64,000 bases of DNA from a virus, in IMG/VR virus record IMGVR_UViG_3300044701_003160, positions 62,001 to 126,000 of that record; one strand, given 5' to 3'. The notes below the pieces were generated by a model that saw nothing but the letters and a program-made list of their open reading frames with translations, made no database searches and was not told the origin of the DNA. Every line of letters starts with the position of its first letter. Within the stretch, counting starts at the first letter, position 1. Below are positions 3,761 to 55,511 of the stretch, piece by piece. Made by a program: the position numbers and the translations under genes.

Positions 3761-6700
3761 TTATCCTCTACTTAAACTTAAATCAGGCATACTACTATTT
3801 ACTGGAATTGGAACTATCATCGGAAAGTCAATTGATTTTGAAGATGATGGTTTCTCAATATATTGAATCATTGGTTGAATTGCAATCATCATTCCAGATC
3901 CTGGAGTCTCATAAGAAGCAAATGAGTTTGGTATTGTGCGATTTGGTTTTGATGGTGCTATGAGACCACCATCTTGTAATTTTCCTTGTACTTGTATTCC
4001 ACTTTGTCTTAATTGTTCTGCTGTGGAAGGTCTACCCCCAATTTGTGTTGGTTTTTGTGGAGAATTTGATGCCTGACTTTGGGCACTATTATATCTTTGC
4101 TTTTCTTCTGGAGTCCACTTTTTAGCTTTCCATATTCCCTTTTCTATAATACCTTCTTTTCCTCCTTTCATAGCTAATTTATATGTTATCGATGGTTTAA
4201 CATTATCACCAAACAAGAAAGTTTTATCCGCTTTTGAATTTAAAGTTTGCCAATTGGATACCGTATTTCCATTAGGATCATCATATTCAAAGTGTAAATG
4301 TGAACCAGTTGACCCCCCTGTACTACCAACAGTTCCAATCACACTTCCTGCTTTTACTTTACTCCCAACACCAACTTTTCTATCAGATAAATGCGCGTAT
4401 ATTGATTTTGATCTATCAGAATGTTGAATCTCGATCAAGTTTCCATATCCACTAGTCATCGAACCATTAACCTCAGATCTAGTAACCACCCCATCTCTAG
4501 TAATAGTAATAGGAGTTCCATCCGGCATAGGATAATCATTTCCAGAATGCATTTTCCATTCACCAGTTATTGGATGTTTTCTATCACCCGCTTTAGAACC
4601 AAGTTTTGTACTTGGTAGTACTCCACCAGTAAAAGAAGAAGAACTTTCACCTTCTCTAAATTTTGCAGTTCCGTCAGGTGCTTTTGGAACCTTTGATAGA
4701 TATTCTCTATGCTTTTTGGGACCAGTACTACTTTGAATATATTCTGCAGGTCTTTCCCACTTTCTCATCCACCAGTCGGCAGCTTCTTCCGATGAAGAAA
4801 ACTTTTTAGAAAGATATTCTTGTCCAGGTTCTCCGGGTTCTTTTAAAGCATAATCTACTTGTGCCTTCCAATTTTTTTCCCAATCCGGAACTGCTCTCAA
4901 AAATGCTTCTTTTCTTCCCGCAGAAGAATATTGAAATAAACCAATTCCAGGTCCATCAGGTTGTTTTGCATCTACTCTGAATCCACTTTCTCTAAAAATA
5001 TTAGCCATAATTCCAAGTGCCTGAGCGTCACTCATTTTTTTCTCATTAATTAAATACTCATAAATTTCTTTCTGTATTCCTGATGGTGCATATCCACCAT
5101 ATTCTCCACCAGAAGTTCCAGTAAAACCATTACCAGGGCCCTGCATATCATCCTTAGTAGTGTCTTTCTTCAACATCAATTCTTTTTCAATACTCTGAAT
5201 TGCCTCATTAACTCTTTGATCAATTGTAGGACCAATAAGTTTTGCAAGTAAATCACCGGTACTCATATCTCCATAAGATCCTCTCAATTCTCTTGAAGGA
5301 ACTGTACCTCCTTCAGCAAATCCTCTGATTTGAGACATCAAGGAACTCATACTCTTATTTGTTCTTTGATTTGCAAGAGTATCTGCAACATAACCAATAC
5401 TATCAAAGAATGCCTTAAAAACTTTTTTATCTGGTTTTTGTCCTAACGCCATATCAATACCAGAACTCATCACACCAAGAATTCCTTTTGCAAGAGTTTC
5501 GTCAGACTTTAATGTACCCGACATTTTCTTGAGAGTATCAAAGGCAGTTAGATCCTTTTTTTCTCCATCAAATAAAGTTGATAACCAACCTCCAGAAGGT
5601 CTTGTATATTTCTTACTTTCATCTTGCGGTTTTGCATAAAATTCTTTTATTTTCTTTTCTCCACCAACATCTTTACCTGGTTGAGTTTTAGGTAGAGAAA
5701 CTCTTGGTGGTTTTTTTCTTGTTGGAGTAATTGATCTTCTTGATGGACCACCAACTGGTCTTCCACCTCTTGTAGTTCCACCACCTTGATATCTACGAAC
5801 AACTCTTCCTCCACCAGAAAACATCGGAAGCCAAGGAGCATAAGTTTCTTTTATTACCTTTCCAATATCACGAATCAAAAGTAAAATATCAATACCAATA
5901 CTGACTCCACCAAAAATAGCAGCAGCAGGAACACCAACTCCAGTTAATGCAAGAATCGCAGTAATCGTATCAAGGCCTGCAGATACTGATGCTAATGCTC
6001 CACCAATATTATCTCCCGATTTAAACCTTGCTGCTGCGTCAGCTGCTCCAACTGCTGCACCAAGACCAGGAACTGCCGCGCCAGCAAACTTACTTAAAGG
6101 ACCTTTAAGTTTTGCAAATGGTCCTTTGAATAAATTATTCCACCATCCAGGAACTTTACCACCTTTTCCAGTTGTTACTTTCGGTTTTCCTGTTGGTTTC
6201 TTTCCACCTCTACCTTCAGTTACTTTTGGTTTTCCTCCTTTTTTACCTTTCTGTGGTTCAGGTGCGCTTTTCTTTCTCCACTTATTATACTCGTCAACCG
6301 CAGCACCACCAATATCAGCAGCAAGAACACCTACAATAATCGAAGCATTTACAAAAGTATTAAATTGTTTTTCTAACTTATCAAATTCAGTTTGATAATT
6401 ACCACCTACTCCTGCCTTTGCGCTTGCGATGAATCCTAATGTTTTTTCTTTTAAGTCTCCACCAAACTTCACGAGACTCATAAACCCATCAAAGAGTTTA
6501 CCAAACAATCCTTCACCAAACTTATAAATTCCACCTACGATTTTTGCAAACCCTTCAAGTTTTGGTAGAAACTCAAGTATCTTTGGAAGCAACCATCCAA
6601 GAGCAGTAAAGAATAAAAATCTCTTTACACGATCAAGAAATCCTAAAGAAGGTGCAGATATTCCGGGAAGTCTTAATCCTTTTGATTGTGGTGTTTCTAG

Positions 6701-6958
6701 TTTCTTTTCTGCAGCATCAAAATCTTGTTTTTCTTTTTCTTTTCTTTTAACCTCTGCTTTCTTTTGAGATACAATTAAATCTGACTTTAAGAACTTTTCA
6801 ATATTAACTAACTTACCACCAACATCATTACTCTTAACTATTGCTACACTCTTTTTATTAATATTAATTGGAGAAATTAGTCCAGACTTTCCAACTTTTG
6901 TAATTGCCGTAGACTTTGCTGATGGAAGTAGTTTAGAAGGATTTGTAATTTTTGCCAT
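3761..6958 (-). CDS. large tail protein with tail-lysozyme and M23 peptidase domains
   Basis: 1065 residues. N-terminus is basic, with a hydrophobic block at about 112-180 and an Ala/Gly-rich hydrophobic block at about 285-375. A lysozyme-like domain of the phage-tail-lysozyme type lies at about 625-765 ('GIMANIFRESGF', 'GIGLFQYSS'). A Zn peptidase M23 domain follows at about 795-905, with the metal-ligand motifs H-x3-D ('HSGND') and H-x-H ('SHLHFEY'). It would locally open the peptidoglycan during DNA injection. The hydrophobic blocks recall tape-measure or hub length proteins such as T4 gp29, so it may fill part of that role. Four bases separate it from the next large tail gene. Confidence 0.8.
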   Translation of the reverse strand: MAKITNPSKLLPSAKSTAITKVGKSGLISPININKKSVAIVKSNDVGGKLVNIEKFLKSDLIVSQKKAEVKRKEKEKQDFDAAEKKLETPQSKGLRLPGISAPSLGFLDRVKRFLFFTALGWLLPKILEFLPKLEGFAKIVGGIYKFGEGLFGKLFDGFMSLVKFGGDLKEKTLGFIASAKAGVGGNYQTEFDKLEKQFNTFVNASIIVGVLAADIGGAAVDEYNKWRKKSAPEPQKGKKGGKPKVTEGRGGKKPTGKPKVTTGKGGKVPGWWNNLFKGPFAKLKGPLSKFAGAAVPGLGAAVGAADAAARFKSGDNIGGALASVSAGLDTITAILALTGVGVPAAAIFGGVSIGIDILLLIRDIGKVIKETYAPWLPMFSGGGRVVRRYQGGGTTRGGRPVGGPSRRSITPTRKKPPRVSLPKTQPGKDVGGEKKIKEFYAKPQDESKKYTRPSGGWLSTLFDGEKKDLTAFDTLKKMSGTLKSDETLAKGILGVMSSGIDMALGQKPDKKVFKAFFDSIGYVADTLANQRTNKSMSSLMSQIRGFAEGGTVPSRELRGSYGDMSTGDLLAKLIGPTIDQRVNEAIQSIEKELMLKKDTTKDDMQGPGNGFTGTSGGEYGGYAPSGIQKEIYEYLINEKKMSDAQALGIMANIFRESGFRVDAKQPDGPGIGLFQYSSAGRKEAFLRAVPDWEKNWKAQVDYALKEPGEPGQEYLSKKFSSSEEAADWWMRKWERPAEYIQSSTGPKKHREYLSKVPKAPDGTAKFREGESSSSFTGGVLPSTKLGSKAGDRKHPITGEWKMHSGNDYPMPDGTPITITRDGVVTRSEVNGSMTSGYGNLIEIQHSDRSKSIYAHLSDRKVGVGSKVKAGSVIGTVGSTGGSTGSHLHFEYDDPNGNTVSNWQTLNSKADKTFLFGDNVKPSITYKLAMKGGKEGIIEKGIWKAKKWTPEEKQRYNSAQSQASNSPQKPTQIGGRPSTAEQLRQSGIQVQGKLQDGGLIAPSKPNRTIPNSFASYETPGSGMMIAIQPMIQYIEKPSSSKSIDFPMIVPIPVNSSMPDLSLSRG

Positions 6959-6962
6959 CTAC

Positions 6963-9341
6963 TTATCCTCTCAGACCGTAGATTGATGCATACTCTGCTC
7001 TATTATTACTTGGAGCAACTGCAGAAAAATTAGGAACTTCAGATGCACCAGCAAGTCCTGCTGCTCTTGGTCTTGATGATCCACCTCCAGATGCAACCAT
7101 AGGTGGTAGAGTCATCATACCGTTCATTCCCGATCCACCAAAAGTTTTGTATGGAGTAATTGATCTATATCCTCTTCTTGCTGCTTCTGAATTTGGATCC
7201 AGTTTAGCCTGAATTAAATTTGCAATCTCAGATGCTCCTCTTTCAGTTGCTTGTTTAGTAAAAATATATTTGGATTCACCTGGTTGAACTGCAACATTAA
7301 TTAATTGTCTATCGGCTGTCGCTCCAGGAATATTCATTCCAGTATTTTCCTTAATTTCTCCACCTCGCATAAATGGAAGCATAGATGGCATAAAGTTAAG
7401 AGCAGTACCTAGTGTTTTCATTATGCCTAAAGATTTTTTCTTTGCTTTTGGTTTTGCAGGTGCTTCTAGGTTTAACGCGCCGGAGTTGAGTTTCTCTCTA
7501 TATTGATTGAACCTAGAAACTCTATCTTCATATCCATTAATTCCTTTTGGACTGGAAGCAGATGGATTGTTTATTGCTCTAGATGCAGAAAAAACATCAT
7601 TCCAATTATTACCAACTGCAGGTCTTACATTTTCTTTCCAATACATCACAGCAATTTTTGCAGCAATATCACTATTTGTTGCAAGATCTGGATTATTTAC
7701 CAAATCAATTCCCAATTTATCTCCATACTTTTTATAATTATAATCGTGAGTTAATTGGATATATCCTCTACCTTTGTATTTTTTTCCACCACTATAACTG
7801 CTACTTCCACCACCAAGTTCAGTACTCCACTTATATCCTCCAGTTTCGTGAGACATTTGAGATAAGAAAGATGCTAATTCTAATCCCTTTATTCCAGCAG
7901 AGTTGGCGGCTTTTATTAAAGGAAGATCTCCAAACTTGGAAGTTCCAGATAATGGTGATTTTGGTTTTCCTACCATTCCTCCAATATTAAATCTTGGTAT
8001 CATTCCGCCAAGATTAAATCCCCCACCAAATCCAGGAAATCTAAGATTACTCATATTCACGGATCCTGGTTTTCTTCCCGCAAGATATTGTGGTATGTTT
8101 AATGGTTGCCCAGTACGTCTATCAACATATCTTTGTCCAATATCTTGTTGATCTTTTTCTGTGAGAATTGCTTCTCCAGTTTTTGCAGCAATCAGAGTAT
8201 CGTCAGATCCAGCACCAGCAATTGGAACTCCTTGTGAGAAATCCATTCCACCATATGGATTAAATCCTCCCATTTTAAAACTAGGAATCATTCCCCCAAA
8301 ATTAAATTTTGGAACCCGAGTATCTTGTGCTTTATCTACAGATTTTTGTGCTTCATTAAGTTCTGGATTTGTTTTTGGAATTAATCCTGACTCTGGTGTT
8401 TCTTTATCTGTAAATAAATTTCCAATCTCTCTACTTACTAAAGGTGCTGCAGCAAGTGCTAAGAACGCAAGTTTTTTATTTTTTCTTATGAACCCAAATA
8501 TTTTTGGAATATTCATTCCAATCGCAATAATCATTCGGGTAACGCCTTTCAGCAGTCCACGAACTAATTTTCCAAAACCAGTTCCAAATAAAATATAAAG
8601 TCCAGCAAGTGCAGGCCAGTGATCCGATAAGAATTCTATAAAAGAATTAAACTTATTTTGATTTCCTTTATTACTCATCCACTCCATAAAGGAAGTAAAT
8701 CCTCTTCCTAGTAAAGTGAAAAATATGAATTTAAAAATACGATCAATAATTGCCTGAAAAGGTGAAAGTAATTTTTTAGTGGTGGATACTATTGTACCTA
8801 TTCCTTTTTTAAATCCTTCTAATGCAGATTCTTTTTTTCCTCTTCCTTCTGTTTCTTTATCTCTTCTTTCCTTATCAGATTGTTTCTGATCAAATTTAAA
8901 TTTAGAACTTAAAATAGTTAAAATTGAATCTAAAGTATTTTTAATACCATCAGTTTCAAAATTAGAAGATACTGATATTGCATTTGTGGTTGATGCAAGT
9001 TTTCCTTTCTGCGCTTTTATAATTGCTGCAGAAGATGGAAGTTTTTTTTGTCCGGGAATACTAGAAGTCTTAGTAAAACTAACTTTTGTTTTTGCTTTTT
9101 TAACCTTGAATCTAAGACCTTTATCTTTTAAGGTACGAACTCTTTTAAATTCATTTCTTAAAAGTTCATCTTCTTCTCTTGGAAGTTCCTTTCCCGCAAG
9201 TCTTGCTATCGCTAACTTCTTTTTAATAATATCGTGATATGTTTGATAATCTAATTCGACGCCAACATTTAATCCAAGTAACCTGAGAATTACTTCATCA
9301 ATTGATTCAGATTTTACTTTGTTACTTGGATTACTAACCAT
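6963..9341 (-). CDS. large tail protein with GH19-type hydrolase domain
   Basis: 792 residues. After a charged N-terminus there are hydrophobic segments at about 200-300, as in the neighbouring tail protein. A glycoside hydrolase 19-like (chitinase or endolysin type) domain is at about 465-600: 'SHETGG' with the likely catalytic Glu, 'KGRGYIQLT' and 'NYKKYG' are family hallmarks. Several Gly/Phe/Met-rich segments ('FNLGGMIPRFNIGG') flank it and look like flexible or aggregation-prone linkers. Together with its neighbour this gives the virion at least three wall-cutting activities. A tape-measure-like role (T4 gp29 position) is possible but inferred. The preceding 56-residue gene overlaps its start by 8 bases. 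Confidence 0.78.
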   Translation of the reverse strand: MVSNPSNKVKSESIDEVILRLLGLNVGVELDYQTYHDIIKKKLAIARLAGKELPREEDELLRNEFKRVRTLKDKGLRFKVKKAKTKVSFTKTSSIPGQKKLPSSAAIIKAQKGKLASTTNAISVSSNFETDGIKNTLDSILTILSSKFKFDQKQSDKERRDKETEGRGKKESALEGFKKGIGTIVSTTKKLLSPFQAIIDRIFKFIFFTLLGRGFTSFMEWMSNKGNQNKFNSFIEFLSDHWPALAGLYILFGTGFGKLVRGLLKGVTRMIIAIGMNIPKIFGFIRKNKKLAFLALAAAPLVSREIGNLFTDKETPESGLIPKTNPELNEAQKSVDKAQDTRVPKFNFGGMIPSFKMGGFNPYGGMDFSQGVPIAGAGSDDTLIAAKTGEAILTEKDQQDIGQRYVDRRTGQPLNIPQYLAGRKPGSVNMSNLRFPGFGGGFNLGGMIPRFNIGGMVGKPKSPLSGTSKFGDLPLIKAANSAGIKGLELASFLSQMSHETGGYKWSTELGGGSSSYSGGKKYKGRGYIQLTHDYNYKKYGDKLGIDLVNNPDLATNSDIAAKIAVMYWKENVRPAVGNNWNDVFSASRAINNPSASSPKGINGYEDRVSRFNQYREKLNSGALNLEAPAKPKAKKKSLGIMKTLGTALNFMPSMLPFMRGGEIKENTGMNIPGATADRQLINVAVQPGESKYIFTKQATERGASEIANLIQAKLDPNSEAARRGYRSITPYKTFGGSGMNGMMTLPPMVASGGGSSRPRAAGLAGASEVPNFSAVAPSNNRAEYASIYGLRG

Positions 9342-9504
9342 TGGCTCTTTGCTGTGCCCGTTGTTCTTCTTCTTCCAGATGCTGTTTTAGTAAAATCACA
9401 TAAATGTCCCTTTCCCAAGGTATCATATTTTCAATCTCTGTTAATGAATATTTATGATACTGCATTAAGGAAAAATTTAACTTGAAGTAACTCTCCAAGT
9501 CCAT
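9334..9504 (-). CDS. small tail or baseplate assembly protein (gp51-like position)
   Basis: 56 residues: starts 'MDLESYFKLNFSLMQ', contains 'IPWERDIYV' and ends in a Glu/Gln/Arg-rich tail. I recognise it as a short protein kept between gp26 and the large tail genes in T4-like cyanophages, the place of T4 gp51, but cannot prove homology. Two in-frame starts exist, 9513 and 9504. The AGGA at 9514-9517, which overlaps the stop of gp26, is nine bases from the 9504 ATG but touches the 9513 ATG, so 9504 is preferred. It overlaps the next gene by 8 bases. Confidence 0.7.
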   Translation of the reverse strand: MDLESYFKLNFSLMQYHKYSLTEIENMIPWERDIYVILLKQHLEEEEQRAQQRANG

Positions 9505-9515
9505 ATGACTCATTC

Positions 9516-10235
9516 CTATGCGAAAAAACTTGATAACCCTTCTAGAACAACTTCACTTTCAACTTCTGTCTTTGGATTTTTAACTTTAATTGTATGAGAA
9601 AGTTTAGGCATCGTTTCAAAGAACTTTTCAATTTCTTTGAATTGTGATGAGTTCATTTGATCTAAAAACTCCATTAATTCTTTCTTAGTTACATCTGCTG
9701 CAACCCAGACTTCATCCTCAGTATAAATTTTATCTACACAAGAACCAATCAATTCAAATGATTGATCCATCGTACCATCAGCAGAAAGATCAAAGTTACT
9801 CTTAATAAACTGTTCTAATGATGGATACTTCATCTCCATCACGATTGAATCATCAAGTTTAATTCTATTATTATGTTCTGAATTTTTTTGAACTTGAATA
9901 TCATCTACAAGAATCTTAACAGGAACAGTAGTCTCTCCATCATCCGGACAGATGATATTCACTTCAATCTCTTCTCCAACTGACTTACCGCGAATGTTGA
10001 GAAAGAGATATTCAATATCAAAAGTAGGAAGAGACTCTACTTTAATTCCTTTAGTCTCAATACAATTTTTAATGACTGTTTTGATCGCGGTAGTAATCTG
10101 TTTGGTATCTTCAGATTCTAATGCAATCACTAATAGTTTTTCTTCTTTTACTAGAAAGGGTCTGTATTTGATTGTTTGTCCAGTTGAAGGCAACTCAAGT
10201 TCATAAGTTGGTGTAGAAATCTTAGGTAAAGGCAT
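9516..10235 (-). CDS. gp26: baseplate hub protein gp26
   Basis: 239 residues, close to T4 gp26 (208). The opening 'MPLPKISTPTYELELPS', the 'YRPFLVKEEKLLVIALES' segment and the spaced acidic helices are typical of the T4 baseplate hub subunit family. 'IICPDDGE' has a single Cys only, so no zinc finger. In T4 gp26 helps build the hub before wedges attach. It lies between the gp54-like tube initiator and the small assembly protein, the usual hub order in cyanophages. A GATAAATA late-type motif stands 28 bases upstream. Confidence 0.85.
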   Translation of the reverse strand: MPLPKISTPTYELELPSTGQTIKYRPFLVKEEKLLVIALESEDTKQITTAIKTVIKNCIETKGIKVESLPTFDIEYLFLNIRGKSVGEEIEVNIICPDDGETTVPVKILVDDIQVQKNSEHNNRIKLDDSIVMEMKYPSLEQFIKSNFDLSADGTMDQSFELIGSCVDKIYTEDEVWVAADVTKKELMEFLDQMNSSQFKEIEKFFETMPKLSHTIKVKNPKTEVESEVVLEGLSSFFA

Positions 10236-10262
10236 AATGTCCTATAGAAACTTCAGTATGTT

Positions 10263-10270
10263 TATTTATC
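10263..10270 (-). promoter_or_regulatory. late promoter for gp26
   Basis: GATAAATA, one base off the T4 late consensus TATAAATA, reading leftward and ending 28 bases before the gp26 start. It overlaps the last codon of the gp54-like gene. In T4 such boxes are used by RNA polymerase carrying gp55 and gp33. Confidence 0.5.
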
Positions 10271-11078
10271 AGTCTATTTCAACGAATCCATCAGACCCAA
10301 CTGGAAGGCCAGAACCTCCCTCCGGTACATTAAAAAATCCATCAGATCCAACTGAAAGTCCACCCCCTCCGCCGGGAATATTAACGAATCCATCAGCGCC
10401 AATAGGAGGAATACCAGTTGCTGTTGTTTGTCCTGGTTGCATAGGTTTTTCAACTGCAACGGAGTTTCTTACATAACGAATAAAGGAAAATGAAACAGTG
10501 CATTTTAATAATTGAGAGGACTCATAAGAAACTGGTATTGAATTGATACTTAAAGGATACGCACGAATGAATTTATATTCTAATGCTGAACCAACATAAT
10601 CTCTCTCAAACTTTGTTATGTATAATGCATCAGTCTGATAATCATCTGGAAAATTTACACGATAAAAATAGTTTCTATTTTCCAAATCCTCTGCATTATT
10701 TTCACCGACACAATAAGAAATCCACCTTTCAAAAAAGTTTATAATTCCATAGTTTTTATCTACATAAAAAGTAAAATCAATGCGGTCGTCATACTGCCTT
10801 CTATATGCGGGTCTTTCCGTGACTCCAGTGTGATCATCAGTAATCTCATTTGTCATCAAAGAAGCACCAGGAAGTGATGCTTCAGAACAAGACAATTCAA
10901 TTAGTTCTTGATTTTTTCTTGCATTATAATCAGATCCAGGAAATCTTCCTTCACCCTGCTTAAGAAATGCTGCAGTGGCCGCTGGGGGTTGAAATCTACA
11001 AACATAATGAGAAGTTAATGCCGGTCTTAATAACTTCTGTTTTATCTCAAAGTTTTTAACTACAGTTGGTCCTGCCAT
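10269..11078 (-). CDS. gp54: gp54-like baseplate tail-tube initiator (gp19 family)
   Basis: 269 residues. The core (about 1-215) resembles the T4 tail-tube family that includes gp19 and gp54: an N-terminal 'RPALTSHYVCRFQPP', a middle 'DDRIDFTFYVDKN' strand, 'FERWISYC' helix and a late 'TVSFSFIRYVRNSV'. T4 gp54 sits on the hub and starts tube polymerisation. The last 50 residues are three imperfect repeats of 'DGF-(V/F)-N-(I/V)-P-x-G-G' type, unusual for gp54 and like the collagen or knob-like tails seen on some cyanophage structural proteins. Assigning gp54 rather than gp19 rests on location beside gp26 and gp48. Confidence 0.75.
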   Translation of the reverse strand: MAGPTVVKNFEIKQKLLRPALTSHYVCRFQPPAATAAFLKQGEGRFPGSDYNARKNQELIELSCSEASLPGASLMTNEITDDHTGVTERPAYRRQYDDRIDFTFYVDKNYGIINFFERWISYCVGENNAEDLENRNYFYRVNFPDDYQTDALYITKFERDYVGSALEYKFIRAYPLSINSIPVSYESSQLLKCTVSFSFIRYVRNSVAVEKPMQPGQTTATGIPPIGADGFVNIPGGGGGLSVGSDGFFNVPEGGSGLPVGSDGFVEID

Positions 11079-11087
11079 CTATAAATA
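11079..11087 (+). promoter_or_regulatory. T4-type late promoter for gp4-gp53 operon
   Basis: A perfect TATAAATA box (11080-11087) in the gap between diverging genes, 31 bases before the gp4 start and reading rightward. It is the only clear promoter for the four structural genes to its right. Confidence 0.65.
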
Positions 11088-11117
11088 CTTTTACTGATAT
11101 ATTATGTATGCTGGAAA

Positions 11118-11561
11118 ATGGCAGAAAGTATTAAGAGTATATACAAACCATCTCATCCAGAAAAATATCAAGGTGATGCATCAAACATCATTTGCAGAAG
11201 TAGTTGGGAGAGACGCTTTTGTTATTATTGTGACCATAATCCAAGCATAGTATCTTGGGCATCGGAAGAATTTTGCATCTCTTACGTGTCTCCAGTTGAT
11301 AACCGAGTTCATAGATACTTTCCAGATTATCTTATTAAAGTAAAAGAGGAATCTGGAAGAATTAAGACTTATGTAATTGAAGTCAAACCTAAGAAACAAA
11401 CAGTTCCACCAAAGCAAAGATCAAGAGTGACGAAATCATACTTGCACGAATGTAAAACTTATGCAGTCAATCAAGCAAAGTGGAAAGCAGCACAAGAATG
11501 GTGTGCCGATAGAATGTTAGAGTTCAAAGTCATTACAGAAGATGAATTAGGTATCAAATAA
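11118..11561 (+). CDS. gp4: head completion protein gp4
   Basis: 147 residues, almost the same length as T4 gp4 (150). It shows the family pattern 'YQGD..NI.CRSSWER' near the start, 'HRYFPDYLIKV', 'YVIEVKPKKQT' and 'KWKAAQEWC', which together look like an endonuclease-type fold. In T4 gp4 (50/65) acts on the filled head before tail joining. First gene of a rightward operon; stop and next start overlap (TAATG). A late promoter box stands just upstream. Confidence 0.88.
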   Translation: MAESIKSIYKPSHPEKYQGDASNIICRSSWERRFCYYCDHNPSIVSWASEEFCISYVSPVDNRVHRYFPDYLIKVKEESGRIKTYVIEVKPKKQTVPPKQRSRVTKSYLHECKTYAVNQAKWKAAQEWCADRMLEFKVITEDELGIK

Positions 11562-23460: not shown

Positions 23461-24822
23461 TTACTGACCTGTAAAGTCAAACCCACCAAGATCATCTGGA
23501 TAATCAGGAACTTGAAAATCAATCAGAGGTTCTGGAACATCTGGAATATTTACATCGTCAGTATTCTGTGGTTCATACTCAAACTCTGGTCTTCCTCCAC
23601 GATTATCATATTCATCGTTGAAAGAATGATCCTTCAAGAATTTATCTACAAGATCTCCAGTATTTGAACCTGGAGTTTGATCATTTTCAGCGTCATTATT
23701 AGGTCCTGAATTACCTGGAGCATCATCATCTCCGTTACCCCATCCATTATTTTGCCCTCTTTCAGGAACATCTCCTCCACCTCCTCCATTATCATTACCA
23801 TTTCCAGGAGTATTATTTTGTCCTGATCCATCGTTCTTTGAGTCGCCTGGTGGTTGATTAGTTTCTGGGTCTTGCCCATCTTGATGATTTCCTTTTCCTG
23901 GATTATCAGATGCTCCTGTTTCTCCATCCCAAGGCGAATTACCAACTTCCTTATCATTACCAGGATTTCCTTTACCAGGACCTTCAGGATCCTCTGGATC
24001 CTCTGGATCCTCTGGATCTTCAGGATCTTCGGGATCCTCAGGGTCTTCGGGATCCTCAGGGTCTTCAGGATCTTCGGGATCCTCAGGGTCTTCAGGGTCT
24101 TCGGGATCCTCAGGGTCTTCAGGGTCTTCAGGGTCTTCGGGATCCTCTGGATCTTCAGGATCCTCAGGGTCTTCGGGATCAACAGGAGGATCAACAGGAG
24201 GATCAACAGGTGGGTCTACTGGAGGATCAACAGGAGGATCAACAGGAGGATCAACAGGTGGGTCTACTGGAGGATCAACAGGAGGATCAACAGGTGGGTC
24301 TACTGGAGGATCAACAGGTGGGTCTACTGGAGGATCAACAGGAGGATCAACAGGTGGGTCTACTGGAGGATCAACAGGAGGATCTACAGGAGGATCTACA
24401 GGAGGATCAACAGGAGGATCTACAATTTCTTCTTCATCAACAGGATTATCAGTACTGTTGAAACTGTTGTTAGTAATATTGTTAGTGTTAGGTAAAGAAT
24501 CCAGAGAAGCATTATTGATTGCTGATAATGGAATTGAATTTGATACTCTAGTTCTAGCAGTATCATTATCACCAAGAACAGGAACATCACCCGAACCACC
24601 AAAGACCTCATTAAAATTTGCATCTTCTAATTGAGGATTTGTGACCTGAACCTGGCCAACATTAATTGGTTCAACTTCTTCTATCGGAGTTTCAGCAAGA
24701 ACATCAGGAACTTGCGTATATCCTTCTGGATTTCTGAGTGCTGCACTAGGATCGTGTGGAGTTGAATCCTGTGACTGTTGATTTGTTCGTTGAGTTTCCT
24801 CAAGTTGCAGTTGTTCTTCCAT
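23461..24822 (-). CDS. low-complexity protein with DPPV and DPE tandem repeats
   Basis: 453 residues. Residues 1-125 are polar, then about 20 copies of the tetrapeptide DPPV (about 133-214), then about 21 copies of the tripeptide DPE (about 215-279), then a Gly, Asn and Asp-rich stretch and a C-terminus with 'PEPLIDFQVPDYPDD'. It is strongly acidic and surely extended. Such stalk-like repeats are seen in adhesins and phage fibres; the protein may be displayed on the virion, but no known domain is visible. Cys is absent. The DNA repeats make its length prone to change by slippage. Confidence 0.7.
   Translation of the reverse strand: MEEQLQLEETQRTNQQSQDSTPHDPSAALRNPEGYTQVPDVLAETPIEEVEPINVGQVQVTNPQLEDANFNEVFGGSGDVPVLGDNDTARTRVSNSIPLSAINNASLDSLPNTNNITNNSFNSTDNPVDEEEIVDPPVDPPVDPPVDPPVDPPVDPPVDPPVDPPVDPPVDPPVDPPVDPPVDPPVDPPVDPPVDPPVDPPVDPPVDPPVDPPVDPEDPEDPEDPEDPEDPEDPEDPEDPEDPEDPEDPEDPEDPEDPEDPEDPEDPEDPEDPEDPEDPEGPGKGNPGNDKEVGNSPWDGETGASDNPGKGNHQDGQDPETNQPPGDSKNDGSGQNNTPGNGNDNGGGGGDVPERGQNNGWGNGDDDAPGNSGPNNDAENDQTPGSNTGDLVDKFLKDHSFNDEYDNRGGRPEFEYEPQNTDDVNIPDVPEPLIDFQVPDYPDDLGGFDFTGQ
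23985..24179 (-). repeat. 9-bp coding minisatellite (DPE units)
   Basis: About 21 tandem 9-base units encoding Asp-Pro-Glu. Units differ only at third positions, for example GGATCC and GGGTCT variants, showing local higher-order copying of blocks. Confidence 0.85.
24180..24423 (-). repeat. 12-bp coding minisatellite (DPPV units)
   Basis: About 20 tandem 12-base units encoding Asp-Pro-Pro-Val. Two spellings alternate (units with GGAGGATCAACA and with GGTGGGTCTACT), in blocks that recur, which points to expansion by slippage or unequal exchange. Confidence 0.88.
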
Positions 24823-24975: not shown

Positions 24976-25046
24976 AGGTCTTGTGATATAGAAATAATAA
25001 ACATAAAAATACCGAATGCTATGAATGCTGCGAGTAATGTGAGCAT
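24972..25046 (-). CDS. 24-residue membrane peptide
   Basis: ATG at 25046, one hydrophobic helix 'LTLLAAFIAFGIFMFIIS' and a short 'QDL' end. Its first 28 bases lie inside the 3' end of the HNH gene, and its stop overlaps the next start. It may be the old first gene of this short operon, whose upstream flank was changed when the HNH gene moved in. Very short, so moderate support. Confidence 0.5.
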   Translation of the reverse strand: MLTLLAAFIAFGIFMFIISISQDL

Positions 25047-25594
25047 TTGAGATTTTCTACGAGTGTTTGGAGTTCTTGTAGGGAAGCGTCGTTTTTGAGT
25101 GTGTTGGCTCTATTGCTTATGACCCACACATTACCTTTTATGTATCCTTTTTCTGGAATGATTTTATCTAATGAAGGACTATTTGGATGATAACCTTTTT
25201 TAGGTTGTATCTCAATAGGAATACCAAGTAAAGGGCAAGTTTCGGGAATGACTATATCAATAAGTTCCAGATTGAATGGAATATTATTTTGCTTTGCTCT
25301 ACTTTTTGCTCTGGTCAAAATTCTATATTCAACTGATTTTGATACTGCGTTGGGGTCAAATCTTTCACGATTTTTGGCGTTTACTATTTCTTTACGAATA
25401 CATCCACAAGATTGAGTTCTACCATTTAACAATCCCTCTCTTCTTGTTGAAGTTGTATTTCCACCGCAAGAACAAGAGCACTCGCATAGAATATATTTTT
25501 TATTACTATATTCTCTTAAAACAGTCAGTCTCCCAAAAGTTTTTCCAACTAATCCTCCGCAAGGAATTGATTTTTTATTTAATCCCATATTCAT
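25019..25594 (-). CDS. HNH-type homing endonuclease next to psbD
   Basis: 191 residues. N-terminal 'VGKTFGRLTVLREY' with Cys-rich 'CECSCSCGG' and 'SCGCIRKE' is a DNA-binding domain typical of this endonuclease group; the C-terminal catalytic part has 'CPLLGIPIE', 'SPSLDKIIPEKGYIKGN' and 'WVISNRANTLKND'. It lies downstream of psbD and carries both a host-type and a late promoter. Free-standing homing enzymes near psbA/psbD are known in cyanophages. Its last codons overlap a small membrane gene. Confidence 0.8.
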   Translation of the reverse strand: MNMGLNKKSIPCGGLVGKTFGRLTVLREYSNKKYILCECSCSCGGNTTSTRREGLLNGRTQSCGCIRKEIVNAKNRERFDPNAVSKSVEYRILTRAKSRAKQNNIPFNLELIDIVIPETCPLLGIPIEIQPKKGYHPNSPSLDKIIPEKGYIKGNVWVISNRANTLKNDASLQELQTLVENLKCSHYSQHS

Positions 25595-26818: not shown

Positions 26819-27343
26819 TTAGTGCTTATGCTTTTGTAGGTATCTAACTGCGTTGCTTAATGTATCTAAGTTGTCTCCAACCAATCCTAGCATTCTGTTG
26901 CAGTTGCTACAAAGCAATCCACGAACCTTTCCTGTCTTATGGTCGTGGTCCACATAAAGGTTATTACTATCCTTTCTACCATTTGTATTTGGATTAAAAC
27001 AAATAACACAAACTTCATTTTGTTCTTGTAGAAGGTTTTTATATTGCTCTAATCCAAAATCTTCACCATAAGTATATTTCAACATATAGTCTTTCTTATC
27101 GTCATAAGAAGGTCTCTTATCTTTATAGTCTTTACTATAACACTCTTTACACCTCTTATGACCTTTATAATATTCTGAAATAAGTTTTTCTACACCACAC
27201 TTGTTGCAGACGATATGAGTTTTACTCGCCCAGTTTTCTGCATAAGTTTTTTCTTCACATCTTATACACCTTCTACGACCTTCTCTAAAATCAGAGACAG
27301 AAAGTTCTTTGTTGCAACTTCTACAAATCTTCGTGGTTCTCAT
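26819..27343 (-). CDS. endonuclease VII-like homing endonuclease beside psbA
   Basis: 174 residues. Three Cys pairs in the first 90 residues ('CRSCNKEL', 'CIRCEEK', 'CNKCGVEKL', 'CKECYSKD') are zinc ribbons; the C-terminal 'CVICFNPN', 'LYVDHDHKTGKVRGLLCSNCNRMLG' region is the His-Me (endonuclease VII) catalytic domain with the DHDH motif (quoted in part). In cyanophage S-PM2 a free-standing enzyme of this group, F-CphI, lies in the same place after psbA and cuts psbA DNA. The two psbA introns here have no open frame, so this enzyme is the natural candidate for moving one or both. Confidence 0.85.
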   Translation of the reverse strand: MRTTKICRSCNKELSVSDFREGRRRCIRCEEKTYAENWASKTHIVCNKCGVEKLISEYYKGHKRCKECYSKDYKDKRPSYDDKKDYMLKYTYGEDFGLEQYKNLLQEQNEVCVICFNPNTNGRKDSNNLYVDHDHKTGKVRGLLCSNCNRMLGLVGDNLDTLSNAVRYLQKHKH

Positions 27344-27430: not shown

Positions 27431-28947
27431 TCAACCGATTGAAGGAGCAGTGAGAGCAACTGGTGTTGCTTCTGCTGCTGCAAGGTCAAGTGGGAAGTTG
27501 TGCTTACAGTTTGGACTATATCTTCACCATACTCTTTATGAGGTTAGGTGTCGGACGCTATTGGTGTATTACATCTCACGCTTGAGAAACCACCTAGTCT
27601 CTGAACCTTCCAATCAAGTTCGTGATTGGCTTGGCTGCTGATTGCCCGTTAGGGTTTCCAGCAATTCATCCGAAGTTTATCTTACCTTTTCAGATAAGAG
27701 CGCCCACAAATCGAGCGTTGCGTTCATGCATGACTTCCATTCCAAGTCCTGCACGATTTAGGACATCTGCCCAAGTGTTAATAACTTTACCTTGACTATC
27801 AACGATAGACTGGTTGAAGTTGAAACCGTTGCACTGAACCCATAAGTTTACCATTCTTATGGAGTGGACTATATCTTCATCCATTTAGGATGTTGGGCGC
27901 TATTGGTGTATTACATCTCACGCTTGAGAAACCACCTAGTCTCTGAACCTTTCCAAGAAGCGTCTTGGACTTGGCTGCTGATTACCCAATATGGAGGGCT
28001 TCCAGCAATTCACCCAATGTTTACCGTCAAATTGCTAGGACGGGACCCCGACGATTGAGGTTAAATGCCATCGTAGAAACACCAAGAGCAGTGAACCAGA
28101 TGCCTACAACAGGCCAGGCAGCCAGGAAGAAGTGCAGTGAACGGGAGTTATTAAAGGAAGCATATTGAAAAATAAGGCGTCCAAAATACCCGTGAGCAGC
28201 AACGATGTTGTAGGTCTCTTCTTCTTGACCGAACTTATATCCGTAGTTCTGTGACTCATTCTCAGTAGTTTCACGAACCAGTGAAGAAGTCACCAGTGAA
28301 CCGTGCATAGCACTGAAGAGTGAACCACCGAACACACCAGCAACTCCAAGCATGTGGAAGGGGTGCATCAGGATATTGTGTTCTGCTTGGAAGACAAGCA
28401 TATAGTTAAACGTACCAGAGATACCAAGAGGCATCGCATCAGAGAAAGAACCTTGACCGAAAGGATAAACCAGGAATACGGCAGAAGCAGCAGCAACAGG
28501 TGCGCTGTAAGCAACACAGATCCAAGGACGCATACCTAGACGGTAAGAGAGTTCCCATTCACGTCCCATATAAGCATAGATGCCGATGAGGAAGTGAAAT
28601 ACAACGAGTTGGAAAGGTCCACCGTTATAAAGCCATTCATCAAGAGAAGCAGCTTCCCAGATAGGATAGAAGTGAAGTCCGATAGCATTAGAAGAAGGAA
28701 CAACGGCACCAGAGATGATGTTGTTTCCGTACATTAGAGAACCAGCAACTGGTTCACGAATGCCGTCGATGTCCACTGGGGGAGCACCAACGAAAGCGAT
28801 AATGAAGCAAGTCGTAGCAGCAAGCAGGCAAGGAATCATCAGGACTCCGAACCAACCAACATACAGACGATTGTTAGTGGAAGTAACCCACTCACAGAAT
28901 TGGTTCCAGGTATTTGTGGAACGTTGTTGAGCAATTGTAGCAGTCAT
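27431..28947 (-). CDS. psbA: photosystem II D1 protein, three exons
   Basis: Exon 1 is 28947-28058, exon 2 is 27831-27714, exon 3 is 27502-27431; joined they give 1080 bases, 359 residues plus stop, a normal D1. Exon 1 ends within the 'AFNLN' segment, exon 2 codes '[13 protein letters not shown]' to 'MEVMHERNA', exon 3 codes '[16 protein letters not shown]' and the C-terminus. Splice points were chosen so that each exon ends in T and each intron in G, as group I splicing needs, and the frame is kept. All chlorophyll and Mn ligand segments that I can check are present. Phage D1 replaces damaged host D1 in infected cells. Without splicing the protein would stop after residue 306. Confidence 0.93.
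27503..27713 (-). ncRNA. group I intron 2 in psbA
   Basis: 211 bases without an open frame. The classic core elements appear in order: P-type 'AATTGCTGGAAACCC', Q-type 'AATCAGCAGCCAAGC', R-type 'GTTCAGAGACTAG' and S-type 'AAGATATAGTCC'. The 5' exon end CGCT can pair with GGCG in the intron (P1 with a U-G pair at the splice site) and the intron ends in G. Its length is about that of the single psbA intron of cyanophage S-PM2 (about 212 bases, from memory). It shares a 54-base identical block with intron 1. Confidence 0.9.
27832..28057 (-). ncRNA. group I intron 1 in psbA
   Basis: 226 bases without an open frame. Core elements in order: 'AATTGCTGGAAGCCC', 'AATCAGCAGCCAAG', 'GTTCAGAGACTAG', 'AAGATATAGTCC'. 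The 5' exon end ACCT pairs with GGGT in the intron (U-G at the splice site) and the last base is G. It splits the codon for Leu just before 'NGFNFNQ'. Exon 1's reading frame runs nine codons into the intron and then stops, so splicing is needed for full D1. Confidence 0.9.
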
Positions 28948-28969: not shown

Positions 28970-29022
28970 ATTCAGGGGGACTGAATGGTTACAAGTATTC
29001 CCACGACACCCTCCATCGTGGG
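28970..29022 (-). other. two hairpins in the psbA 5' leader
   Basis: Reading leftward, CCCACGA pairs with TCGTGGG (29000-29022), then ATTCAG pairs with CTGAAT (28970-28986). Both lie between the promoter at 29113-29141 and the ATG. There is no T run, so they look like RNA stability or translation elements and not terminators. No Shine-Dalgarno is seen before psbA. Confidence 0.5.
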
Positions 29023-29112
29023 TATGAGGGATGCTTTACTTCTCGTGATCCCGGTTGGAGAAGATTCCGTAGGTAAGAAATTGTTACATTCCTTAACCCC
29101 GTGTATGTATAT

Positions 29113-50642: not shown

Positions 50643-50842
50643 AGGGTCTTTTAGGCTCGCCACCAATTCTTTGACTGGAAATTGGAAACCAGGCGGGAGT
50701 AAGATCCCATCCGCACCACCAATCCTTGAGAGAGATTGGAAACTCATAATAGGGTCATATTGACTCCACCAGTACTTTTAGAGTCTCTCCGTGACTAAAG
50801 GGGTTCATCACCGACCAGGGCTAGTTTTAAGTCATACCGGGA
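50643..50842 (-). other. non-coding region with three diverged repeats, possible RNA
   Basis: 200 bases with no supported frame. On the plus strand three units each start with CCACCA followed by a T-rich spot (near 50660, 50716 and 50767); the first two each form a stem (CCAATT with AATTGG, CCAAT with ATTGG) and are followed by GGAAAC-type sequence. A strong terminator closes it in the leftward direction. Could be a 3' leader or a small structured RNA. Confidence 0.4.
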
Positions 50843-52314: not shown

Positions 52315-52388
52315 TCGGGACGATAGGATTTGAACCTACGGCCTGACGCTCCCAAAGCGCCTGCTCTACCAAACTGAGCTACGTCCCG
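52315..52388 (-). tRNA. tRNA-Pro (anticodon TGG)
   Basis: 74 bases. Acceptor CGGGACG/CGTCCCG, anticodon stem GGCGC/GCGTC with loop TTTGGGA, T-loop TTCAAAT. Promoter at 52401-52429. Confidence 0.92.
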
Positions 52389-52400
52389 ATTTCTTTGTGT

Positions 52401-52429
52401 ATCCTATCAGGTTTATCGAACCCTGTCAA
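52401..52429 (-). promoter_or_regulatory. promoter before tRNA-Pro
   Basis: TTGACA (52424-52429) and TAGGAT (52401-52406), spacer 17. It lies at the end of the small membrane gene. Confidence 0.6.
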
Positions 52430-52571
52430 CCACCTGAAGAACACCGTGAGCATAAAAGAAAAGGAGTACTGAACCGATTGTTGCTGATATTATTGTAGCA
52501 GTTTTATTGTGCCTGTCAATGGCTTTTGCAACTGACTGGTCGATCATTTCTTGAACTTCTTCAGGTGTCAT
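52413..52571 (-). CDS. 52-residue membrane protein
   Basis: ATG at 52571. Polar first half 'TPEEVQEMIDQSVAKAIDR', membrane helix 'ATIISATIGSVLLFFYAHGV', short tail. Overlaps the next gene upstream by 11 bases. Recurrent small cyanophage protein; role unknown. A promoter-like pair lies inside it. Confidence 0.6.
   Translation of the reverse strand: MTPEEVQEMIDQSVAKAIDRHNKTATIISATIGSVLLFFYAHGVLQVVDRVR
52492..52519 (-). promoter_or_regulatory. promoter-like pair inside the membrane gene
   Basis: TTGACA (52514-52519) and TACAAT (52492-52497), spacer 16. May give extra transcripts of tRNA-Pro; it could be chance within coding sequence. Confidence 0.4.
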
Positions 52572-52716
52572 TTTTATTACCAAGAAATTTTGCCAGAGGA
52601 TCTCTTTTTGTTCTAATTATTTCACACGCTCTTTTATAAAACATATTATCAGTATTACCTGATGATTCAAACGTTTCCTTTATTTTAACCCAATTTTGGT
52701 ATGTGTGATCATCCAT
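52561..52716 (-). CDS. conserved small protein, 51 residues
   Basis: ATG at 52716. 'DDHTYQNWVKIKETFESSGN' and 'MFYKRACEIIRTKRDPLAKF'. I recognise this pattern in other T4-like cyanophages near the membrane gene. No function known. The gap upstream has TTGACA at 52771-52776 but no good -10. Confidence 0.62.
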   Translation of the reverse strand: MDDHTYQNWVKIKETFESSGNTDNMFYKRACEIIRTKRDPLAKFLGNKNDT

Positions 52717-52803
52717 TTGGGATCTATACGTTATTATTACTAATTTAGTTTAATTAACAATCTTATTTTGTCAAGTATGTGTGGATATCATCATAATTTT
52801 AAA

Positions 52804-52888
52804 CGGTGAGGAAAGGATTCGAACCTTCGGATGCTTTCACATCGACTGTTTTCAAGACAGTTGCCTTAAACCACTCGGCCACCTCACC
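52804..52888 (-). tRNA. tRNA-Ser (anticodon TGA)
   Basis: 85 bases, class II. Acceptor GGTGAGG/CCTCACC, anticodon loop CTTGAAA, long variable arm, T-loop TTCGAAT. The HNH gene stop codon lies in its first bases. Confidence 0.92.
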
Positions 52889-53243
52889 ATATTATTTCCA
52901 ATAAACCAGCGTGTATTTTACGATGACACGGAGAACAGAGCATATAACATTTATCTATTTCTGTTTGGATTGTCTCCCATTTGTATCCTTTTCCCGCTAA
53001 GTAAGAAACTTCCTTTTTCTTATTTTCTGCCTCAATATGATGAAAATCAAAACAACAGGGAGGATGGTAATCTCCACAAGCATCACAACAACCTTTTTCA
53101 AGTTTTAATTGATTTAGTTTTTCAACCATCAACTTTTTATTATTATATTCTCTTTGGTATTTAATTTTTTTAAATTCTCCAGATTGTTTTTGAGCCCAAA
53201 GACGTTGTGCTTCTTTTTGCTTTTCTTTATCTTTATAAGGCAT
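52884..53243 (-). CDS. HNH endonuclease at tRNA-Ser
   Basis: 119 residues. 'CCDACGDYHPPCCFDFHHIEAE' holds the Cys pair and catalytic HH; 'CYMLCSPCHRKIHAG' the second pair and final His (parts). N-terminal half is a Lys/Gln helix. Its stop codon sits inside the tRNA-Ser acceptor stem, so it was inserted exactly beside the tRNA. Late box at 53265-53272 within a stem. Confidence 0.82.
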   Translation of the reverse strand: MPYKDKEKQKEAQRLWAQKQSGEFKKIKYQREYNNKKLMVEKLNQLKLEKGCCDACGDYHPPCCFDFHHIEAENKKKEVSYLAGKGYKWETIQTEIDKCYMLCSPCHRKIHAGLLEIIW

Positions 53244-53264
53244 ATCATTTAAAAGGTTCTAATT

Positions 53265-53272
53265 TATTTATA
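53265..53272 (-). promoter_or_regulatory. late promoter inside a hairpin
   Basis: Perfect TATAAATA, 22 bases before the HNH start, enclosed by arms GTTCTAATTT and AAATTAGAAC (about 53257-53284). Arms abut the stop of the 83-residue gene. Confidence 0.62.
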
Positions 53273-53284
53273 AAAAATTAGAAC

Positions 53285-53536
53285 TTAACGGACTTCGAAA
53301 TCAAGACGCCTCACTTTTCTTTGGCGTCTTTGTTCTTGCCAGGCAATATCCTGGGAGGTTAACACGTTTGTTTTTGGTGTTTCCTTTAATGAGTTTAGCA
53401 TTACAATACGGGATAAGTCAACTGCCGAAATCTTATCTCCTCTAATTGTTGCCATATTGGGACATCCACAACTAATAGTTTTTGAAGAGTGCCCCACTAA
53501 TTCTTTACTGCAATCTTTGCATCTTATTGATATCAT
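53285..53536 (-). CDS. Cys-rich small protein, 83 residues
   Basis: 'SIRCKDCSKEL' and 'TISCGCPNM' give four Cys of a zinc-ribbon type, followed by 'ISAVDLSRIVMLNSL' and a basic Arg-rich part. Recurrent in cyanophages. It may bind nucleic acid. Confidence 0.68.
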   Translation of the reverse strand: MISIRCKDCSKELVGHSSKTISCGCPNMATIRGDKISAVDLSRIVMLNSLKETPKTNVLTSQDIAWQEQRRQRKVRRLDFEVR

Positions 53537-53551
53537 TTTTTGTTACCGTAA

Positions 53552-53986
53552 TCACTGTAAATGTGCTCTTAATTGCCAAACAAATTTTCCGTGAGATTCC
53601 ATCAAATCTTGAACTAGATTGGCAGTTGCATAAGATTTTTGAGTTTCAGACTCTTCCGAAATTTCACCCATTAACTCACAAAATTTAGTATTGTTATCCA
53701 AAAGTTCTTGAAGCATCTCTTTTGCTCCCGTAGAACTTGTTGCTTCTTTGATTTGAGTTACTTCAAGCATTCTTGAAAGAGAACTTAAAGGTTTTACATT
53801 TAAGTATCTCATATGTTCGGAGAGCCTGTCAATCTCTTCAAACATCGTTTCATATTGTCCACCAAACAGTTGATGAAGTTGAGTAAAGTCTTCACCTACA
53901 ACATTCCAGTGAAATGCCCAGGTTTTATGGAACAAAACAAAAAGTGATGACTGAGCATCACTGAGTAATTTATAAAGTTTTTCCAT
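53552..53986 (-). CDS. Dps/ferritin-like protein
   Basis: 144 residues from ATG at 53986; a longer frame overlaps tRNA genes. 'LFHKTWAFHWNVVG' and 'QLFGGQYETMFEEIDRLSEHMRYL' carry the Dps ferroxidase His, Asp and Glu residues (parts). Helical all along. It would bind or oxidise iron and protect DNA. Annotated as Dps-like in several cyanophages. Confidence 0.82.
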   Translation of the reverse strand: MEKLYKLLSDAQSSLFVLFHKTWAFHWNVVGEDFTQLHQLFGGQYETMFEEIDRLSEHMRYLNVKPLSSLSRMLEVTQIKEATSSTGAKEMLQELLDNNTKFCELMGEISEESETQKSYATANLVQDLMESHGKFVWQLRAHLQ

Positions 53987-54014
53987 TATACTTTTTTTCA
54001 AGTATTTATGCAAA

Positions 54015-54087
54015 TGGGAGCAGAGGGATTCGAACCCCCGACATTCTGCGTGTAAAGCAGACGCTGCTACCGCTGAGCTATGCTCCC
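54015..54087 (-). tRNA. tRNA-Val (anticodon TAC)
   Basis: 73 bases. Acceptor GGGAGCA/TGCTCCC, anticodon loop TTTACAC, T-loop TTCGAAT. Confidence 0.93.
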
Positions 54088-54090
54088 TTG

Positions 54091-54162
54091 TCCTCTGTCT
54101 GGGAATCGAACCCAGTATCCGTGTGTGTTGTCCACCCGTCCTTACCAATAGACTACCAGAGG
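54091..54162 (-). tRNA. tRNA-like sequence with a broken anticodon arm
   Basis: 72 bases between tRNA-Val and tRNA-Asn. Good T-arm (CTGGG/CCCAG, TTCGATT), a D-arm (GTC/GAC with GG) and six acceptor pairs. The arm where an anticodon belongs does not form five pairs and has no T at position 33. It looks like a decaying tRNA; alternatively it is read in an unusual way. Confidence 0.45.
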
Positions 54163-54164
54163 TA

Positions 54165-54236
54165 CTCCACAACCTGGATTCGAACCAGGGACCAATCGAT
54201 TAACAGTCGATGGCTCTACCGCTGAGCTATTGTGGA
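54165..54236 (-). tRNA. tRNA-Asn (anticodon GTT)
   Basis: 72 bases. Acceptor TCCACAA/TTGTGGA, anticodon loop CTGTTAA, T-loop TTCGAAT. Confidence 0.93.
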
Positions 54237-54244
54237 ATGTTCTA

Positions 54245-54448
54245 CTACTTAGAACTTACAAAATCATTAATCGTTTCTGCTTGCTTAAGAACATCCTGTA
54301 GAGTTGGAAACTCTGGATAATCCATCTTCACAGTATTTGAAGAATTTAGATTCCAATAACGAGCAGTATCCATTTCAGTACTGAACTGATCATTTAGCAT
54401 ATTATATGCTTGCTTGAAGATTTCAAAACGAAGTTCGTAAGGTGTCAT
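54245..54448 (-). CDS. conserved small protein, 67 residues
   Basis: 'PYELRFEIFKQAYNMLNDQF' and 'MDYPEFPTLQDVLKQAETI'. Recurrent cyanophage protein of unknown role, set between tRNA genes. No close family. Helix-rich. Confidence 0.65.
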   Translation of the reverse strand: MTPYELRFEIFKQAYNMLNDQFSTEMDTARYWNLNSSNTVKMDYPEFPTLQDVLKQAETINDFVSSK

Positions 54449-54495
54449 TTATTTACTCCCGTGTGTTTGTGTGTTTAAAGAACCTGAAGGTTCAG

Positions 54496-54566
54496 AGCGA
54501 GTGACGGGGATCGAACCCGTGACAAGAGCTTGGAAGGCTCGCATGTTACCGCTACACCACACTCGC
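54496..54566 (-). tRNA. tRNA-Gly (anticodon TCC)
   Basis: 71 bases. Acceptor GCGAGTG/CACTCGC, anticodon loop CTTCCAA, T-loop TTCGATC. Promoter at 54576-54604. Confidence 0.93.
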
Positions 54567-54575
54567 AATAAGACA

Positions 54576-54604
54576 ATCATAAGGTATAAAACCCAGATTG
54601 TCAA
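54576..54604 (-). promoter_or_regulatory. promoter before tRNA-Gly
   Basis: TTGACA (54599-54604) and TATGAT (54576-54581), spacer 17, starting next to the tRNA-Leu 3' end. Confidence 0.7.
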
Positions 54605-54605
54605 G

Positions 54606-54687
54606 TGCCCAAAAGAGGACTTGAACCTCCACAGATAAATCTACAGGAACCTAAACCCTGCGCGTCTACCAATTCCGCCATTTGGGC
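54606..54687 (-). tRNA. tRNA-Leu (anticodon TAG)
   Basis: 82 bases, class II. Acceptor GCCCAAA/TTTGGGC, anticodon loop TTTAGGT, long variable arm, T-loop TTCAAGT. Confidence 0.92.
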
Positions 54688-54690
54688 GGA

Positions 54691-54763
54691 TGGAGAATAG
54701 GAGACTCGAACTCCTGACACCCGCCTTGCAAAGGCCGCGCTCTACCAACTGAGCTAATTCCCC
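54691..54763 (-). tRNA. tRNA-Ala (anticodon TGC)
   Basis: 73 bases. Acceptor GGGGAAT/ATTCTCC, anticodon loop TTTGCAA, T-loop TTCGAGT. Promoter at 54829-54857. Confidence 0.93.
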
Positions 54764-54828
54764 AAGATGGAGTAAGTGTGATATACCTCATAAGGATATA
54801 ACAGTGACTTACCCTCTATCACTTTTAT

Positions 54829-54857
54829 ATATTACACCAGTTATTCGATGGTGTCAA
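54829..54857 (-). promoter_or_regulatory. promoter before the tRNA-Ala/Leu pair
   Basis: TTGACA (54852-54857) and TAATAT (54829-54834), spacer 17; overlaps the end of an HNH gene. Confidence 0.65.
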
Positions 54858-55392
54858 GTCTTAATTTAGAGTGTATCTCTCTGTGACAATTAGAACAAAC
54901 ACATATACATTTGTCAAGTTCCTTTTTTTGGTCTTCCCATTTTCGTATTTTAATGTTACCAAAGTTTTTATCTTTTTGTGATGGGTCTATATGATGAAAC
55001 TCTAAAGCATCGATACACTTATCATATCCGCACCTCTCACATTTTCCACCTTTATAATCAACTGCTCTTTTTTTATTATTTTGCCACCTTTCTACAGAAT
55101 ATTTGTTGTGGCATTTTTTACAATTTGCTTGCCATATTTTTTTACTTTCACGCCAATATCCAGTTTTTTCTGTCAAAAGAACTTTACATTTAGAGCAATT
55201 TTGAATTGGTTTACCATCTACTTTTAAAATTGGATTTAAAATATATCCATCTTTAAATGTTTTATGTTTTGTTTTTAATTGATATTTGTCTAACCAATAC
55301 CTAACAGTGGTTTTTCCTTTACTTTCAAGTTTAGATATTTGTGAGGTTGACATTCCATCTTCAATATATTCTATTAATTTTTGTTTATCCAT
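54841..55392 (-). CDS. HNH endonuclease with helix-turn-helix start
   Basis: 183 residues. N-terminal 'DGMSTSQISKLESKGKTTVRYWLDKY' is a helix-turn-helix-like part (shown in part); a Cys pair 'CSKCKVLL' with 'CKKCHNKY'; catalytic 'CERCGYDKC', 'LEFHHIDPSQ', 'CVCSNCHREIHS'. Free-standing homing enzyme inside the tRNA cluster. Late box at 55415-55422. Confidence 0.82.
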   Translation of the reverse strand: MDKQKLIEYIEDGMSTSQISKLESKGKTTVRYWLDKYQLKTKHKTFKDGYILNPILKVDGKPIQNCSKCKVLLTEKTGYWRESKKIWQANCKKCHNKYSVERWQNNKKRAVDYKGGKCERCGYDKCIDALEFHHIDPSQKDKNFGNIKIRKWEDQKKELDKCICVCSNCHREIHSKLRLDTIE

Positions 55393-55414
55393 TAGTCCAA
55401 AGGAAATATATTAT

Positions 55415-55422
55415 TATTTATA
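55415..55422 (-). promoter_or_regulatory. late promoter for HNH gene
   Basis: Perfect TATAAATA reading leftward, 23 bases before the start. No strong stem around it. Confidence 0.55.
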
Positions 55423-55438
55423 CAATTGAACTATTTAA

Positions 55439-55511
55439 CAGGCGTACCTGGATTTGAACCAGGGATAAGGCTTTAGAAGAGCCGTGTGATAATCCACTTC
55501 ACCATACGCCC
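55439..55511 (-). tRNA. tRNA-Arg (anticodon TCT)
   Basis: 73 bases. Acceptor GGGCGTA/TACGCCT, anticodon stem GGCT/AGCC with loop CTTCTAA, T-loop TTCAAAT. Confidence 0.92.

Follow-up and report, generated by a model that had tools for sequence, protein, structure and literature searches.

Phages carry psbA, a well-studied photosynthesis gene. In the virus studied here, whose record includes a gene for a T4-type major capsid protein (Gp23), the psbA reading frame is broken twice. How such a gene might still yield a complete D1 protein, and how the interrupting segments came to lie in it, are the questions raised by this locus. We analysed a stretch of 64,000 nucleotides of IMG/VR record IMGVR_UViG_3300044701_003160 (hereafter the window, whose coordinates are used throughout), where the relevant features are the following:

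28947-27431, minus strand: psbA, split by two introns
28987..29076, minus strand: PhotoRC-II RNA motif, 5' of psbA (RF01717, 49.5 bits, cut-off 39)
28058..28947, minus strand: psbA exon 1, 890 nt, with 3' end ...TTTAACCT (reading frame and splice placement)
27832..28057, minus strand: intron A, group I, 226 nt, without ORF, after coding nt 890 (RF00028, covariation, site-890 lineage)
27714..27831, minus strand: psbA exon 2, 118 nt (reading frame; protein 100% identical to S-RIM8 here)
27503..27713, minus strand: intron B, group I, 211 nt, without ORF, after coding nt 1008 (RF00028, covariation, site-1008 lineage)
27431..27502, minus strand: psbA exon 3, 72 nt including the stop codon (reading frame and splice placement)
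26819-27343, minus strand: Endonuclease VII-type ORF, 174 aa, proposed mobility partner of intron A (PF02945, BLASTP to F-CphI, nt-890 association)

Read without splicing, the psbA frame meets a stop after exon 1. The three exons joined give a 1080-nt coding sequence for a normal D1 of 359 residues, as the original prediction had it, and the intron lengths that it gave, 226 and 211 nt, were exact. It had placed the first break directly after the residues AFNLN; the true border lies two bases into the Leu codon, a placement that satisfies both the terminal-U and the terminal-G rules. The borders are AACCT^CAATCG...TTCAGTG^CAACGG for intron A and AACGCT^CGATTT...CTGTAAG^CACAAC for intron B. Both sites are empty in the collinear psbA of S-RIM8, which has no introns.

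Both segments matched the Rfam group I intron model RF00028 (cmscan, gathering cut-off 50 bits) on the minus strand, intron A at 28067-27840 (84.8 bits, E = 2.6e-21) and intron B at 27723-27491 (77.6 bits, E = 3.8e-19), and no match beyond these two was found across the whole 219-kb virus record. Their fold was examined in alignments of intron A with 10 same-site relatives and of intron B with five, in which the group I helices, P3/P7 pseudoknot included, were written out by hand after the Rfam alignment and their pairs counted. Intron A has 60 pairs, with 96.3% of cells paired and both sides changed in 25 pairs; intron B has 52 pairs, with 99.4% of cells paired and both sides changed in 13. 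Deriving the structures from the window rows flatters the pairing percentage, so that the pairs changed on both sides carry more weight as evidence. None of 500 shuffles matched the observed pairing or covariation score, and slid versions scored far lower too. The core helices P3-P8 with the P3/P7 pseudoknot are present and backed by covariation in both introns, except that P7, invariant among the relatives as are P1 and P6, is compatible with the fold without adding covariation support. P1 carries the U-G splice pair in each case (ACCU/GGGU in A, CGCU/GGCG in B) and both introns end in G, as had been noticed from the letters alone. Introns A and B are thus real group I introns, a claim of the original prediction now borne out by the covariance search that it proposed, by covariation, by the splice-site rules, by the restored D1 and by the empty sites in relatives.

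Both introns are very probably spliced from the psbA mRNA of this T4-like cyanophage, and they probably remove themselves. The related psbA intron of S-PM2 has been reported to be spliced during infection, in a light-dependent manner (PMC5931967). It could be objected that the introns have lost splicing and that psbA is a broken gene, given that its unspliced frame ends after exon 1. However, all core helices are intact, the exons are open and more conserved in protein than in DNA (compared with S-RIM8, exons 1, 2 and 3 are 97.6%, 100% and 87% identical as protein and 77-87% identical as DNA), and a 91-92% identical genotype has the same structure, which makes a broken gene very unlikely. Our main reading, to which we assign a probability of about 90%, is that two ORF-less group I introns are removed from the psbA mRNA to give a normal D1, and that each is a member of a site-bound intron lineage, having reached this gene by transfer between phages.

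The presence of two introns in one psbA had been called unusual and without a known report. Its novelty was not supported: the deposited psbA of S-CBWM1 (MG450654) is annotated with two introns, SCBWM1_intron1 and SCBWM1_intron2, S-SRM01 has three, and many uncultured contigs have from two to nine. The two group I introns of S-CBWM1 lie at sites other than those in the window (649, where the intron contains an HNH-like endonuclease ORF, and 1011), and an Endonuclease VII ORF beside its psbA was looked for and not found. The S-SRM01 record (MW015081, L006, 1879-4281) shows psbA as two partial genes, although these form a single gene interrupted by three group I introns. It has three RF00028 matches, of which one, at 39 bits, falls short of the cut-off. 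Like the window, S-SRM01 combines several psbA introns with an F-CphI-like ORF 3' of psbA, but its introns lie at 276 (with an HNH ORF inside), 750 and 1002, and none at 890 or 1008. The paper on S-SRM01 treats one psbA intron (PMC8557907), and the three are first recognised in the present analysis; routine annotation, as this case warns, breaks intron-bearing psbA genes into pieces. We found no paper on multi-intron phage psbA genes in the open-access literature, subscription papers lying mostly outside the search.

The intron sites of other phage psbA genes were compared, as had also been proposed, by surveying IMG/VR with junction patterns and then mapping introns with a spliced-alignment program. 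This gave 333 psbA introns before removal of duplicates, at about 20 sites. Among the 146 unique complete psbA genes collected, 82 had no intron, 20 had one and 44 had two or more, counts that are not natural frequencies because most of the scans were selective for introns and one was biased towards intronless genes. The latter, a scan with the psbA protein that ranked single long matches first, served for controls only. The most extreme case was L083 (IMGVR_UViG_3300042987_001812, about 6653-11257), whose psbA is interrupted by nine group I introns, at sites 179, 317, 499, 556, 570, 645, 890, 992 and 1011, eight of which reach the Rfam cut-off; L138 has six, and carries a T4-type terminase gene on its contig. 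These uncultured multi-intron contigs and others share the splice rules of the window and have its sites among theirs, but can hold as many as nine introns, several of which contain HNH- or LAGLIDADG-like ORFs. Two introns per phage psbA are thus already known, and the nt-890 site is without a cultured example here, being absent from the cultured phages searched and present only in uncultured contigs. A scan of bacterial genomes with the site-890 junction pattern gave a sole match, in Paenibacillus nuruki (L181, 5911-5962, minus strand), which is probably a chance match or an unrelated intron.

The introns of the survey cluster on their tree by psbA site, with 20 site changes against 48.9 in shuffles. 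Intron A is 94% identical to the nearest distinct site-890 genotype and intron B 97% identical to other site-1008 introns. Two genotypes at 91-92% identity to the window, L030 and L048, have the same intron pair; L011, L016 and L056 are 100% identical to the window and were excluded as independent support. Introns at 890, 992, 1002, 1008 and 1011 are 199-258 nt long, too short for an endonuclease gene, and many of those at 230, 276, 317, 548 and 645 reach about 700-900 nt, the examined ones encoding HNH- or LAGLIDADG-like proteins. Site 1008 also holds a second intron type of 251-258 nt in L074, L080, L093 and similar loci, related to the introns at 989 and 992 and not to B.

One intron might instead be a recent copy of the other within the same psbA, for instance by reverse splicing. 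A and B do have the Q/R region in common, a P7.1/P7.2 segment of more than 30 nt is identical in the two, and psbA introns do jump between sites, as seen in a site-408 intron 84% like B and in the site-890 intron of L015, which groups with the 408/1008 set. Nevertheless, A and B are only 65% identical over a global alignment, whereas each is 94-97% identical to the same-site introns of other genotypes, and they stand apart on the tree; the P7.1/P7.2 sequence occurs at sites 276, 408 and 1002 too, and is not special to this pair. Duplication within the gene, which we consider extremely improbable, was rejected on these site-tied identities and separate tree positions. A and B would each have reached psbA by transfer between phages.

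The exons flanking occupied sites carry a footprint of their own. The 5' exon reads GAGCGT in all 21 genes occupied at 1002 (27 of 149 unoccupied), AACGCT in all 22 occupied at 1008 (16 of the 71 unoccupied genes that end in GCT) and AACCT in 36 of 36 occupied at 890 (92 of 138 unoccupied), with the mapping program demanding the final T, so that only the other bases are informative. Each occupied site thus has a single 5' exon sequence despite common synonymous alternatives, which fits either the P1 pairing in each intron or flanking DNA moved along with the intron.

How introns too short to encode an endonuclease could spread leads to the neighbour of psbA. The 174-aa ORF starts 87 bp beyond the psbA end, about 0.7 kb from the nt-890 insertion site, and contains a PF02945 (Endonuclease_7) domain (E = 7.7e-22). 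It retains the zinc cysteines, the DHDH and the following R and N (CVIC, VDHDH, VRGLLCSNCN), motifs on which the activity of F-CphI and of T4 endonuclease VII depends (PMC6083498), and its changes relative to relatives are mostly synonymous (for example 42 versus 14 codons). The arrangement resembles that of S-PM2, where an ORF-less group I intron of similar size lies near the psbA 3' end. There, too, the gene is directly followed by an Endonuclease VII-motif ORF, F-CphI. S-PM2 has one intron, of 212 nt and after coding nt 1002, agreeing with the single intron of about 212 nt that the original prediction gave for it, against two in the window at nt 890 and 1008; F-CphI has 142 residues and is only 40% identical to the 174-aa protein (BLASTP, over 137 residues).

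IMG/VR was searched with the 174-aa protein, blind to introns. Close relatives (83-100% identity) numbered 35, three of them on contigs with no psbA, which left 32 assessable; the adjoining psbA had the nt-890 intron in 30 of these, although several of the 32 loci are near-identical copies and the independent number is smaller. Spliced alignment identified 27 of the 30 and the site-890 junction pattern the other three (L184, L186 and L199, corresponding to L056, L086 and L070), which start inside or near the nt-890 intron. The two exceptions, L193 and L211, have an intron at 1002 instead. After deduplication, endonuclease and intron occurred together in 19 of the pooled genes; two had the endonuclease but not the nt-890 intron, 17 the intron but not the endonuclease, and 131 lacked both (Fisher p = 2e-13, a value that ignores relatedness and mixed sampling). 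The nt-890 intron has been gained or lost repeatedly, and the endonuclease changed with it in a mean of 7.4 of 14 pairs and never in the opposite direction (median sign-test p = 0.016, range 0.002-0.06), the pairs being taken on separate well-supported branches of a psbA tree that was built upstream of the site and is open to distortion by recombination within psbA. Before nt 890 the two exceptions read AATCT and AATTT, against AACCT in all 36 occupied genes; as AACCT is also missing in 46 of 138 unoccupied genes, this is a weak indication (about one in nine).

These data suggest, at roughly even odds, that the 174-aa protein is a homing endonuclease with psbA nt 890 as its target, that it spreads intron A in trans and that intron A blocks it, which would make the two a second, separately targeted collaborative-homing pair. 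The free-standing endonuclease would cut intronless psbA alleles and so help intron A to spread, and intron A would block the cutting, as described for F-CphI in S-PM2.

It is a plausible, if less favoured, alternative that the endonuclease is merely linked to intron A and travels with it. The ORF is close enough to the insertion site for recombination to carry both and for the two to co-occur, and the 17 genes with the intron alone are in keeping with simple linkage; the two genes with the endonuclease alone also speak against the partnership. On the other hand, a resident active endonuclease of this type should need protection, and no close relative was found next to a psbA that lacked introns in the 890-1011 stretch. 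Moreover, other Endonuclease VII ORFs (30-60% identity) adjoin psbA genes without 3' introns in 19 of 27 cases, and ORF position by itself is therefore insufficient. It is more doubtful that the endonuclease targets nt 1002-1008 as F-CphI does, with intron B or a 1002 intron as its partner: the similarity to F-CphI, the site-1002 intron of both exceptions and the company that F-CphI-type genes keep with introns at 1002-1011 would favour such a target, but nine deduplicated genes beside the endonuclease have the 890 intron and none at 992-1011.

If psbA is a hot spot for intron stacking served by site-specific free-standing endonucleases, it would offer a natural test system for the formation of such partnerships and for the way in which a phage bears many splicing events in one short mRNA.

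Elsewhere in the window, a further free-standing endonuclease-like ORF lies 3' of psbD (25019-25594, minus strand; PHROG 3322 and 1035, no Pfam match), and an imperfect repeat with copies about 72% identical spans 23976-24424. A strong wcaG RNA match (98.1 bits) occurs at 50649-50747 on the minus strand, and on the same strand eight tRNA genes form a cluster at 52315-55555 that ends with an abiF RNA match.
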